Assembly (NCBI GenBank): GCA_004524545.1
Contig: SDNX01000007.1
Location: 1 to 48,699, forward strand
DNA from: Promethearchaeota archaeon
GTDB lineage: Archaea > Asgardarchaeota > Lokiarchaeia > Sigyniarchaeales > Promethearchaeaceae
Direction of reading: 5' to 3'
Length of the DNA stretch: 48,699 bases
Positions within the stretch are counted from its first letter, which is position 1. Every line of letters begins with the position of its first letter. The position numbers were made by a program, and so were the translations under genes. The notes under the pieces are model-generated. The model was not told the origin of the DNA. It searched no databases and worked only from the letters and a program-made list of their open reading frames with translations. Shown here piece after piece: positions 1,141 to 11,048 of this stretch.

Positions 1141-1189
1141 TCATGCTCCATTTTATTCAAAATTCTCAATTTTTCATAAAAATTCCATT

Positions 1190-1819
1190 ATGTTATTTCA
1201 TGACCCCCGAATGTGTAATTTAGTACAGCCCATATCGTTTTCTCAATGCAAAAATAAGAAAATTCTCATTTTTGGTGATTCTAATGTAGGAAAAACTCAC
1301 TTAACTTCTCAATTTTTATCCTATTTACGAGATACGAGTAGCTTGAAGAAAATATATGTGGTTGAGATGGGACCTGAACGTTTTCAAGTGGATAATTATT
1401 CAGTCGGAGGAAGACTTATTGATTATGATCCGAGTTATCAACATGATCCTTCTGTTTTATATTACAATTATCCTATTACCCCCCCTCGCAGTGCATCAAA
1501 AAATGATGCAGAAGTCTATAAAAATTGCTTAAAAAACTACAAGATTATCCATGACGAGTTTACAACTGTTATTGATACCCTCGTAAATTCTTCAAATAAT
1601 GATTCAGCCCTCATAATTAATGATTTCAGCATTTACATGCACTTAGGATCACACATCCCTTTTCTGAAGCTGTTGAAGTCATCTCATACGGTATTTGTAA
1701 ATGCATATTTTGGTCAAAAACTAGCTGAAGATTATGGATCTAATATAAGTTGGCGGGAAAGGGTGCTTGTTAAACTATTAATTCGTCGTTTTGATTATGC
1801 AATTCATTTGATGAAATAA
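1190..1819 (+). CDS. P-loop NTPase of unknown function
   Basis: Walker A GDSNVGKT after a hydrophobic strand (KKILIFGDSNVGKTHL); Walker B-like SALIINDFS. The ORF extends to 1118; an internal ATG at 1190 is plausible. Confidence 0.6.
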   Translation: MLFHDPRMCNLVQPISFSQCKNKKILIFGDSNVGKTHLTSQFLSYLRDTSSLKKIYVVEMGPERFQVDNYSVGGRLIDYDPSYQHDPSVLYYNYPITPPRSASKNDAEVYKNCLKNYKIIHDEFTTVIDTLVNSSNNDSALIINDFSIYMHLGSHIPFLKLLKSSHTVFVNAYFGQKLAEDYGSNISWRERVLVKLLIRRFDYAIHLMK

Positions 1820-6372: not shown

Positions 6373-6386
6373 AGAAAAAATAATGG

Positions 6387-6493
6387 TGGGACAGGGAAGA
6401 TTTGAACTCCCGACCACTCGGCCCCCAGCCGAGTATCAATCTGGTTCAGCCTATTTAGGTAACGGGCAGAAATACCAGCTAGACTACTGTCCC
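6387..6493 (-). tRNA. tRNA-Pro(GGG) with a ~34-nt intron in the D-loop (intron about 6439-6472); CCA encoded at 6384-6386
   Basis: Reverse strand: acceptor GGGACAG/CTGTCCC; anticodon arm CTCGG-CTGGGGG-CCGAG; T arm GGGAG-TTCAAAT-CTTCC; discriminator A then CCA. Removing 34 nt between GGTA and TGATA gives a 73-nt tRNA with normal D-arm spacing. Confidence 0.88.
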
Positions 6494-6594: not shown

Positions 6595-6669
6595 GGGCGT
6601 GTAGTCTAGCTAGGATAAGGTGCCGGCTTGCGGAGCCGGTGTTCGCAGGTTCAAATCCTGCCACGCCCA
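6595..6669 (+). tRNA. tRNA-Arg(GCG)
   Basis: Acceptor GGGCGTG/CACGCCC; anticodon arm CCGGC-TTGCGGA-GCCGG; T arm GCAGG-TTCAAAT-CCTGC. Confidence 0.93.
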
Positions 6670-7060: not shown

Positions 7061-7334
7061 GTGAGGATATCAGCTTCCAGAAACATCCGAATAATGGGTG
7101 AATTATTGCTCAGTTATTAAAATGAAAGTTTAATTGAGCTTACTTCTGGTATATTTATCCATAATTCATATAGAGTACTTGTAGTTAGGATAAGCACTCC
7201 GCTAATAAACGGGTTTAAATACCGCGACAAAAATATCTCATTACCGATTTATTGAATCTTGAGATGTTTAGAGATTAATACCTATCTAAACTATCGTGCT
7301 TACAACCGAACCTAGCAAACGGGGTAATAGAATT

Positions 7335-10300
7335 ATGGTAATCGACATCGATCAATATCCACAGCAACCGAAACACAATTTTGAAGATTTCTTCAAAAAC
7401 TATGAAGACAGCCCCAATCATTTCAAATATCGAGAAGAAATACAGAGTGCAGCCTTACGTAAAAAATTTCATGTGGATGTGTTATTCGAAGATATTTTAT
7501 CATATGATCCGCCATTGGCGGAATTATTACGTGAAGCTCCTGAGGAAACATTGCGTGAAGGAATTGAAGCATTCAAAGATCTCTTGAAATTTTATTCCGG
7601 AGGAAAAATTGATGAAGAATTGGATTATTTTATCAGGATTAAAACAGACAATAACTCCAACGAAGTCAATCTACGGAAATTACGGGCAGCACACATAGAT
7701 AAACTCGTGTACATCTATGGTATTTTAATTCGAGCTTCTCAAATCGTACCACAAATAACCGTAGCCTATTTTGAATGTCCAGTATGCCAGCAAGTGACCA
7801 AAGTAGACCAAATTGAAAACGTGTTGATTGTCCCCAAACAATGTTCGAACTGTAAAAATAAAGCAGGATTTATAGTAACTTCCAAAGATTCCAAATTTAT
7901 CGATTGGCAAAGCATTCAAATTCAAGAATTACCCGAAGAATTGACCCCAGGAAGAGTTCCCTATTCAATAAAAGGAATTTTAACTCATGATTTAGTAGAT
8001 AAGGCACGACCAGGCGATCGTGTTAAGATCACTGGAATTTTCAAAACTTTTGTGAACGAAAACTCCCGTGGAAGAAAATCGACCTTATTTACTCCGTATT
8101 TGAAAATCCTCAGCATTGAAGGGAGAAATGCGGAAGATGAGGAACTCAATATCAGTCCTGAGGATGAAAAAGAATTCCGCCGTCTTGCAGCAAAACCAAA
8201 CATCCAAGACTTGATTGCAAAATCCATTGCACCATCTATTTTAGGAATGGAACATCTAAAAATGGCAGCAGCGCTTTCCTTGTTCGGTGGTGTAAGGAAG
8301 GAAATGAAAGACGGAAGTGCTCGAAGAGGAGATATCCATATCTTATTCGTAGGGGATCCCGGAACGGGGAAGAGTATCCATGGTGCCGAAAAAGTATACA
8401 TTGGATATCCTACACAGAATAGTCTGCAATGGAATTGTGAAGCAATTGGAGATTTCGTTGACAATTTGATGAATAAAAATAAGGTTTCTATAATATCGAA
8501 TGATGATACCGAGATTCTCAAATTAGATAAAAACAGTCGATTTCATACAGCTTCAATTGATCCGAATACATTAAAAACCAAAAGGACAAAAATACTCGAG
8601 CTTAGTAGACATAATAGTAATAATTTGATAAAGATAACTACAAAATCAGGTCGAAAAATCCTTACGACTCCAGATCATTCATTTAGCACCATTTTAAATG
8701 GTCGACTAGAAGTGTTAACAGGAGACCAACTAAATGAAAATTCATATCTTCCTGTAGCTCGAAAACTGGATTTAAATGGTTTTCAACAAATTGATTTTGC
8801 GGACATGAGTGAAAATATCCCCGAAGGAGATCTTGTTAGTATAGAAACTATCCGATTGCAAAACTCATTAATCGAATCAAATCAGATAAGTAAAATGGAA
8901 GCATATGAAAACGCGAATATCACTCATGGAACTTTTAAAAAATATTCAGAAGAGTTGGATACCCTACCAGAAGGAGATTGGATAAGAACAAAATATGATA
9001 CATCTTGGTTTCCAAGAAAAATTGAACTTACTAAAGAATTTGGTAGAATAATTGGTTTTTATTTAGCAGAAGGAAATTCAGAAAAAACTACAATACGAAT
9101 CACTAATACAGATGAGGATATTGTAAATATTATATATGAAGATTTCCAAAAAATCTTTCAAAAAGCAACAATTATCAAGAACGGATGCATTCTTTGCCAA
9201 TCTACGGTGCATCAGTGGTTTAAACACAATTTTGGAACCGGAGCAGTCAACAAGAAGCTTCCGTTCACTTTTATTACGACACCCAAAGAATTTCGTAAAG
9301 GAATTTTGTCTGCTTATTTTTCAGGTGACGGTTGGATTGAGGAAAAAAGTGCAACTGTTAATGCACTTACAAAAAGTGAAGACCTAGCTACCTCTCTTCT
9401 AGACCTTCTAGCTAGTTTTGGAATTTTCGCCTCTGTTCATGTAAAAGAGATCAAGAAAGGGCAATATAAAGGAAACCACTACTATCAAATCACAATTACA
9501 AGTAGTGAGTTATTCAAGTTTGCCAATCTGATAGGATTTACATCCTCTAAAAAGCAAAAAGATCTTGAAAAATTTGTGGAAACTTGGGTAAATAGAAAAC
9601 ATTATCAATCAAATGACATGATTCCAAATTTTGGAACGTTAATCAAAGATGTTGTTAATGATCTTGAACTTGTTGGGAAAAGAGGAAGTTGGGAGAGGTC
9701 TTTCAAAGGAGAACTCAGAGGAAAATCCCAAAGACAACGAGTTGGAAGGATGTATTTACAAAACAAAGTACAAACACTTAAAGAACTTTATGATATAAAT
9801 TACAAAAAGTACACGGACGAATTAAATCGTCTGGAATATTTAGCCAATTCAGACATCTTCTGGGACAAAATTGCCACTATTGAACCGGTAAAAGGGAATT
9901 TTAAAGTATATGATATTGGAACAACGGATGGACATTTCATTGTTGCAAATGGAAATTTAATTGTGCATAACAGCCAGATCTTAAAACAGTGTGCGCATAT
10001 TTCACCGCAAGCAATTTATACTTCGGGCAAGGGGTCTTCTGCAGCGGGGCTAACGGCGGCGGTAGTCAGAGAAAATGATGCAGCTGGATTATCACTCGAA
10101 GCGGGAGCTTTAGTTTTAGCAGATGGAGGTAATGCTATAATCGATGAATTTGACAAGATGGATAATCGGGACCGTGTAGCCATACACGAGGCGATGGAAC
10201 AGCAAACGGTCAGCGTAGCCAAAGCAGGAATAATCGCAACTCTAAGAGCCCGAACATCTATTATAGCTGCTGCAAATCCAAAAATGGGGCGATATTCTAT

Positions 10301-11048
10301 ACATGATACTCCTACCGAGAATATTAATTTAAGTCCTCCCATCCTTTCTAGGTTTGATCTCATCTTTGTAGTTCGAGATGAACCCAATGCAACTTTTGAT
10401 AATGAAATGGCGGATTTCATTTTAGATTTAAACACAACTGGGGGGATGGTTGATACAGGGACAACAAGTGATCCTCTTATTCCAGGTGAAACCCTGCAAA
10501 AATACATTAAATATGCTCGAAATAAATTTTCTCCGAAATTATCCCCTGAGGCTAGAAAAGTTATCAAGGATTTTTATGTAGATTTACGGAAAATCAATCA
10601 AAACGATAAGAATTCAGCAGTTGCGGTAGTTGCACGAAACCTTGAAGGATATATTCGTATCGCAGAAGCCTACGCAAAGATGGCTTTGCGGAATGTCATC
10701 ACTAAAGAGGACGCGGAAAAAGCAAGAAAACTAGCAAATAAAAGCTTAGAAGACACCAGCATAGATCCAATTACCGGAAAATTGGATGCAGATCGAATAT
10801 TAACTGGAATCAGTACCGCTTCACGCCAGATTAACTCATATTTGGATGCGATTAAAAAGAAAATCGATGCAAACGGTGGAAAACCTATTGATGAAGAGGA
10901 GTTTATAACGGATTTTGAGTTTAGTAATGAGATCGAACGATCGAAAATTGAAGCGTTCTTAGCGAAATTAAAAGAAGAAGGAGCGATCTTAAGTCCAACT
11001 CAAGGTAAAATAATTATTACACCCGATTCAAAAAGCAAAAAAAAATAA
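7335..11048 (+). CDS. mcm: MCM replicative helicase precursor containing an intein
   Basis: MCM zinc motif (FECPVCQQ...CSNCKNKAG), Walker A GDPGTGKS split by the intein, Walker B IIDEFDKMDNRDR, arginine-finger region LSRFDLIFV. The ORF opens at 7296; the ATG at 7335 (MVIDIDQ) is plausible. Confidence 0.95.
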   Translation: MVIDIDQYPQQPKHNFEDFFKNYEDSPNHFKYREEIQSAALRKKFHVDVLFEDILSYDPPLAELLREAPEETLREGIEAFKDLLKFYSGGKIDEELDYFIRIKTDNNSNEVNLRKLRAAHIDKLVYIYGILIRASQIVPQITVAYFECPVCQQVTKVDQIENVLIVPKQCSNCKNKAGFIVTSKDSKFIDWQSIQIQELPEELTPGRVPYSIKGILTHDLVDKARPGDRVKITGIFKTFVNENSRGRKSTLFTPYLKILSIEGRNAEDEELNISPEDEKEFRRLAAKPNIQDLIAKSIAPSILGMEHLKMAAALSLFGGVRKEMKDGSARRGDIHILFVGDPGTGKSIHGAEKVYIGYPTQNSLQWNCEAIGDFVDNLMNKNKVSIISNDDTEILKLDKNSRFHTASIDPNTLKTKRTKILELSRHNSNNLIKITTKSGRKILTTPDHSFSTILNGRLEVLTGDQLNENSYLPVARKLDLNGFQQIDFADMSENIPEGDLVSIETIRLQNSLIESNQISKMEAYENANITHGTFKKYSEELDTLPEGDWIRTKYDTSWFPRKIELTKEFGRIIGFYLAEGNSEKTTIRITNTDEDIVNIIYEDFQKIFQKATIIKNGCILCQSTVHQWFKHNFGTGAVNKKLPFTFITTPKEFRKGILSAYFSGDGWIEEKSATVNALTKSEDLATSLLDLLASFGIFASVHVKEIKKGQYKGNHYYQITITSSELFKFANLIGFTSSKKQKDLEKFVETWVNRKHYQSNDMIPNFGTLIKDVVNDLELVGKRGSWERSFKGELRGKSQRQRVGRMYLQNKVQTLKELYDINYKKYTDELNRLEYLANSDIFWDKIATIEPVKGNFKVYDIGTTDGHFIVANGNLIVHNSQILKQCAHISPQAIYTSGKGSSAAGLTAAVVRENDAAGLSLEAGALVLADGGNAIIDEFDKMDNRDRVAIHEAMEQQTVSVAKAGIIATLRARTSIIAAANPKMGRYSIHDTPTENINLSPPILSRFDLIFVVRDEPNATFDNEMADFILDLNTTGGMVDTGTTSDPLIPGETLQKYIKYARNKFSPKLSPEARKVIKDFYVDLRKINQNDKNSAVAVVARNLEGYIRIAEAYAKMALRNVITKEDAEKARKLANKSLEDTSIDPITGKLDADRILTGISTASRQINSYLDAIKKKIDANGGKPIDEEEFITDFEFSNEIERSKIEAFLAKLKEEGAILSPTQGKIIITPDSKSKKK
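8373..9971 (+). mobile_element. Intein with LAGLIDADG homing endonuclease inside MCM Walker A (Ser1; C-terminal HN|S)
   Basis: Extein GDPGTGK | SIHGAEKVYIG...VANGNLIVHN | SQILKQ; block B LTTPDHSF; LAGLIDADG-type motifs IIGFYLAEG and ILSAYFSGDG. 1599 nt, 533 codons. Confidence 0.93.

Follow-up and report, generated by a model that had tools for sequence, protein, structure and literature searches.

The tRNA-Pro(GGG) gene on the minus strand of the window carries a 34-nt insert in its D-loop, and this insert is almost certainly a genuine intron that would be removed by EndA, with the exons joined by RtcB into a normal 73-nt tRNA-Pro(GGG). The intron-bearing gene is very likely functional. The window is the whole stretch of 48,699 nucleotides that was analysed and represents contig 8 of its genome, here G000 (2.55 Mb, 76% complete, 154 contigs). 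G001 is a same-genus genome, and G002-G007 are further members of the same family. The gene, its parts and its neighbour are located in the window as follows.

6387..6493, minus strand: tRNA-Pro(GGG) gene with intron, 107 nt; acceptor GGGACAG/CTGTCCC, discriminator A
6473..6493, minus strand: 5' exon, tRNA positions 1-21; boundary fixed by the intronless orthologue L201 (G002)
6439..6472, minus strand: predicted intron, 34 nt, D-loop position 21/22
6387..6438, minus strand: 3' exon, tRNA positions 22-73; its anticodon loop CTGGGGG (7 nt, intact) holds the anticodon GGG
6384..6386, minus strand: CCA directly 3' of the discriminator base; encoded in G000, not encoded in the G001 orthologue
6595..6669, plus strand: tRNA-Arg(GCG), divergent neighbour; the two-gene arrangement with tRNA-Pro(GGG) is kept in G001 and G002

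Read from 6493 to 6387, the minus strand is GGGACAG TA GTCT AGCTGGTA, the intron TTTCTGCCCGTTACCTAAATAGGCTGAACCAGAT, and TGAT A CTCGG CTGGGGG CCGAG TGGTC GGGAG TTCAAAT CTTCC CTGTCCC A. All pairs of the acceptor stem (7/7), the anticodon stem (5/5) and the T stem (5/5, including one G-U) are formed, and none of the conserved bases T8, A14, G18-G19, A21, T33 and TTC at 54-56 is missing. ARAGORN made no call on the unspliced gene; when the insert was removed, it returned a clean 73-nt tRNA-Pro(ggg), which bears out the identity proposed in the first-pass annotation. Against RF00005, the unspliced gene scored just 14.4 bits (E = 6), and Rfam gave no tRNA call. The first-pass annotation had also placed the tRNA at 6493-6387 (minus strand) and the intron at 6472-6439 (34 nt), with a 73-nt product and with the extra length confined to the D arm. 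These claims hold, the insert lying at 21/22 and the anticodon loop being an intact 7 nt. A group I self-splicing intron was considered and rejected, since the insert is only 34 nt long and had no Rfam intron match. The catalytic core of a group I intron takes up some 200 nt or more.

The nucleotides around the predicted cuts make up the following elements.

6475..6478, minus strand: central 4-bp helix, 5' strand CTGG; pairs with 6441-6444
6441..6444, minus strand: central helix, 3' strand CCAG
6472..6474, minus strand: 5' splice-site bulge TAT; predicted cut between 6473 and 6472
6465..6471, minus strand: intron helix, 5' strand TTCTGCC
6445..6451, minus strand: intron helix, 3' strand GGCTGAA, with one T-T mismatch
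6438..6440, minus strand: 3' splice-site nucleotides ATT; predicted cut between 6439 and 6438 (minimum-energy structure)

In the fold of the whole pre-tRNA, the acceptor, anticodon and T arms stayed intact, and the D arm was lengthened by CTGG/CCAG and the intron hairpin. The intron helix TTCTGCC/GGCTGAA was paired at 6/7 positions, and equally good pairing in the bulge-helix-bulge register occurred at a frequency of 5e-5 when the intron was dinucleotide-shuffled 20,000 times. The D arm together with the intron folded into the predicted structure with z = -2.4. In G006 and G007, the fold of the intron region was no better than that of shuffles. As for the splice sites, the 5' element TAT is a true 3-nt bulge in the fold, and the 3' element ATT lies opposite TAG (6479-6481), in a 3x3 internal loop that separates the D stem GTC/GAT from the central helix. 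The earlier description of a bulge-helix-bulge therefore stands for the 4-bp helix and for the 7-position helix with one T-T mismatch, but not for two equivalent 3-nt bulges, the 3' one being this internal loop. As modelled, the splice motif is a relaxed bulge-helix-bulge (HBh' or bulge-helix-loop) rather than the strict form. Relaxed forms (HBh', hBH) are counted among archaeal pre-tRNA introns (PMC4090602, PMC6379350).

A near-equal alternative fold was found in the 5-bp register CUGGU/ACCAG, in which the 5' cut would move by one base. Because of this close alternative, the intron boundaries are decided solely by comparison with an empty site. The relatives were searched with a model of the tRNA-Pro 3' half. 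Comparison of the tRNA-Pro genes of relatives, a check proposed in the first-pass annotation, covered eight family genomes (G000-G007); the tRNA-Pro(GGG) intron was present at the same site in seven of them (G000, G001, G003, G004, G005, G006 and G007), and the site was empty in G002. The G001 orthologue has the same location and intron site, and its 36-nt intron has CTGG/CCGG and a differing but well-paired intron hairpin. A second intron is located at 37/38 of the G001 gene. When a single cut rule was applied to G000, G001, G003, G005, G006 and G007, it gave GTCTAGCNTGGTATGATA in all six, with one nucleotide fewer in G000, and the spliced D arm followed the pattern GTCTAGC(T/C)TGGTATGATA, again one nucleotide shorter in G000.

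The intronless tRNA-Pro(GGG) of G002 (L201) has a divergent tRNA-Arg(GCG) as its neighbour, like the gene in the window. Its D arm, GTCTAGCTTGGTATGATA, equals that predicted after splicing in its relatives, and the same D arm was found in the intronless Lokiarchaeal genes L099 and L100. By sequence and arrangement, the G002 gene is the orthologous empty site, which fixes the predicted intron boundaries. If the 5' bulge were instead cut one nucleotide further along, an 18-nt D arm, GTCTAGCTGGTATTGATA, would remain. In favour of this, the minimum-energy fold adds a U-A pair to the central helix, and the product length would then match the relatives. Against it, ...GGTATGAT is the reading in every relative as well as in the intronless orthologue, and the standard geometry in archaea is a central helix of 4 bp with each cut made behind the second base of the bulge. 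The shifted cut is thus improbable, and splicing at 21/22 is preferred. A clean orthologous empty site beside intron-bearing relatives can also help to date the gain and loss of introns. Judged from one gene, loss of the intron in G002 would be the simpler reading, because the GTPase of G002 is closer to that of G000 (62% identity) than are the GTPases of the intron-bearing genera g3 and g4 (46-51%). The placement of the tRNA beside the neighbouring GTPase gene was kept only in G000 and G001 among 30 loci, including those of distant relatives. The GTPase gene also had matches of 53% and 51% identity in Lokiarchaeota assemblies, and the genome search put G050, G051 and G052 into the order of G000 but a different family.

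In six family members, the central helix was 100% paired, with one pair changed on both sides (C-G to U-A). For the central and intron helices together, neither the covariation score nor the percentage paired was reached by any of 500 shuffles or by any slid register. For the central helix alone, covariation was not beyond chance (195/500 shuffles); it is uninformative by itself because it is too conserved.

An assembly error had been named beforehand as an outcome that would overturn the intron. G000 is a metagenome-assembled genome lying in 154 contigs, so an assembly or sequencing artefact was considered. However, the independent genome G001 has at this site an intron that has diverged in sequence but kept its pairing, which excludes an assembly error, and five more family genomes likewise have an intron there. 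We regard the chance of such an artefact as negligible. It was also considered whether the gene is a randomly interrupted tRNA pseudogene, the work being done by a second intact tRNA-Pro(GGG). Such a copy, which the first-pass annotation had listed as grounds for refutation, was searched for with two tRNA-Pro 3'-half models, and neither found one in the 76%-complete G000. Generic tRNA finders give no call on the interrupted gene and another copy could be missing from an incomplete genome; nevertheless, the single-contig G005 gave one strong tRNA-Pro match, which was the intron-bearing GGG gene, seven family genomes have structured introns at this site, and no stem or conserved base of the gene is damaged. 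With a tRNA body both intact and conserved, pseudogene status is unlikely, and the account with a second working copy is highly improbable.

Two EndA-family genes were found in G000, one of 184 aa (alpha, L030:1219-1770) and one of 243 aa (beta, L031:1129-1857). The alpha protein matches Aeropyrum pernix EndA alpha (3p1z; E 2.6e-39) and has all three catalytic residues (Tyr, His and Lys). In the alignment of the beta protein, Phe replaces Tyr and His is absent at the triad columns. Because the catalytic Tyr and His are absent, the 243-aa protein was taken as a structural beta subunit. The EndA architecture, whose typing had been suggested in the first-pass annotation, thus comprises two subunits, a catalytic alpha and a structural beta, and an (alpha-beta)2 assembly is predicted. 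The RtcB ligase is also encoded in G000 (E 4e-167).

A splicing endonuclease of broad specificity had been expected for an intron at this position, and the expectation is supported by the presence of the 'Crenarchaea-specific' loop lysine in EndA alpha. The loop of G000 is RKPKP, which fits the loop type defined by a Lys, then Pro or Val, then a basic residue, and K41-P42-K43 aligned to K44-P45-R46 of A. pernix. The loop lysine was kept in 23/23 aligned Asgard EndA alphas from many families (alignment including L174-L193). The loop motif varies among Asgard EndA, being KPD in family f3 and KIK in G114, and the aligned M. jannaschii EndA is without the loop. Published work links the Lys, Pro and basic residue of the loop with cleavage and a broad specificity (PMC6379350, PMC12397907). 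In Asgard EndA alpha, the loop lysine would fit a broad-specificity enzyme.

We infer from these sequences that the pre-tRNA-Pro(GGG) is actually cut and ligated. The transcript of the sole detected tRNA-Pro(GGG) gene would contain the 34-nt intron at 21/22. Before splicing, CTGG of the D-loop would pair with CCAG near the intron end, and the intron hairpin would stack inside, giving a relaxed bulge-helix-bulge in which one splice site is bulged and the other belongs to an internal loop. The two-subunit EndA, with the 'Crenarchaea-specific'-type loop in its alpha subunit, would make its cuts behind nucleotide 2 of both 3-nt elements, and the exons would then be ligated by RtcB into a 73-nt tRNA. 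With splicing at 21/22, the predicted junction of the mature tRNA is GGTATGATACTCGG.

Introns were present in about 14/32 detected tRNA genes of G000. All three tRNA-Pro genes and tRNA-Gly(TCC) have D-loop introns; besides tRNA-Pro(GGG), these are the following.

G000:C16:11075-11121, plus strand: tRNA-Pro(TGG), D-loop intron ~22/23 (L028/L077)
G000:C105:481-527, minus strand: tRNA-Pro(CGG), D-loop intron ~21/22 (L081)
G000:C105:8972-9068, minus strand: tRNA-Gly(TCC), D-loop intron (L022)

When spliced with the same geometry, tRNA-Gly(TCC) takes on the same D arm as tRNA-Gly(GCC), an intronless gene of G000. Three of the D-loop-intron genes were listed by RF00005 below the cut-off, at 24 to 14 bits, and tRNA-Pro(CGG) was missed; models of the tRNA 3' half replaced the generic RF00005 for gene searches. 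ARAGORN with introns allowed mislabelled tRNA-Gly(TCC) as tRNA-Tyr(ata). Standard tRNA finders miss D-loop-intron genes and mislabel others, as with this tRNA-Gly(TCC) called as Tyr, and their output should be read with this warning. In the Ala, Gln, Thr, His and two Ser tRNA genes, ARAGORN placed introns in the anticodon loop, at or adjoining 37/38. The D-loop insertions of tRNA-Arg(TCG) and tRNA-Trp are probably introns, with approximate boundaries.

Further observations were made on these loci and on the window. A probable tRNA-Trp(CCA) (L085, G000:C16:7498-7547, minus strand, plus upstream) combines its D-loop intron with a long 37/38 intron, and the latter could contain a box C/D guide RNA, as in other archaea. 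A possible tRNA-Ile(TAT) with two introns (L088, G000:C104, about 1180-1330, plus strand) would be unusual, as AUA is read by a modified CAT anticodon in most archaea. In the window, an MCM helicase-like ORF of 1250 aa (7296-11048, plus strand) looks intein-interrupted from a reading of its translation only.

Intron sites were also compared between lineages. The tRNA-Pro(TGG) of G001 has an intron at ~15/16 (L124, G001:C27:146380-146571), a site unlike that of the tRNA-Pro(TGG) of G000, and in the neighbouring Lokiarchaeal family f4 most of the tRNA-Pro genes inspected are intronless or have an intron at ~25/26 (L095, L096, L101, L103 and others). The intron sites shift between lineages, because 21/22, ~25/26, ~15/16 or no site was seen in different lineages. 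We tentatively speculated, with the balance tipped slightly against it, that tRNA-Pro is an intron hot-spot in Lokiarchaeia with lineage-shifting sites, permitted by an EndA alpha loop ancestral to Asgard and Thermoproteota. In this turnover the site is 21/22 for this family, ~25/26 for the neighbouring family (where the intron may also be absent), and ~15/16 for one same-genus gene. If this were true, the archaeal ancestor of eukaryotes would already have had tRNA splicing of broad specificity. The published view is that the eukaryotic and crenarchaeal EndA loops arose independently (PMC12397907), and a loop common to Asgard EndA alphas bears on it. The loop distribution and the turnover of intron sites are by-products more interesting than the intron itself.

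Noncanonical tRNA introns are already known in archaea, with 673 reported in 217 archaeal genomes (PMC8450103), and the Lokiarchaeal case is a well-supported new example. A partial literature search, weak on novelty, found no report of noncanonical introns in this Lokiarchaeal lineage or of the loop in Asgard EndA. Noncanonical sites include 20/21, 22/23 and 25/26, and a Pyrobaculum tRNA-Pro has three introns (PMC4090602). The noncanonical introns of Thermoproteota, Thaumarchaeota and Nanoarchaeota, which have bulge-helix-bulge motifs, are likewise short, with EndA-type sites and a D-arm position, and they sometimes co-occur with a 37/38 intron, as in G001. However, the host here is an uncultured Asgard archaeon (Lokiarchaeia), and the site 21/22 lies between listed neighbours. 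The EndA of G000 resembles the (alpha-beta)2 enzyme of A. pernix in its separate catalytic and structural subunits and in the Lys-Pro-basic loop next to the active site (PMC6379350, PMC12397907). This loop was named Crenarchaea-specific, yet it occurs throughout the sampled Asgard alphas. The first-pass annotation was right about a noncanonical position, but its statement that such introns are established mainly from Thermoproteota is outdated for this case, since the host is Asgard and other Asgard classes have been published (PMC11291895). In the Asgard Atabeyarchaeia and Freyarchaeia, reported in 2024, 92-95% of tRNA genes have introns and noncanonical ones are abundant (PMC11291895). Those introns share with the present ones the phylum and noncanonical positions, and some of the genes have multiple introns; in contrast, about 14/32 tRNA genes have introns here, in a different class. 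The present case extends noncanonical tRNA introns from those two Asgard classes to Lokiarchaeia.
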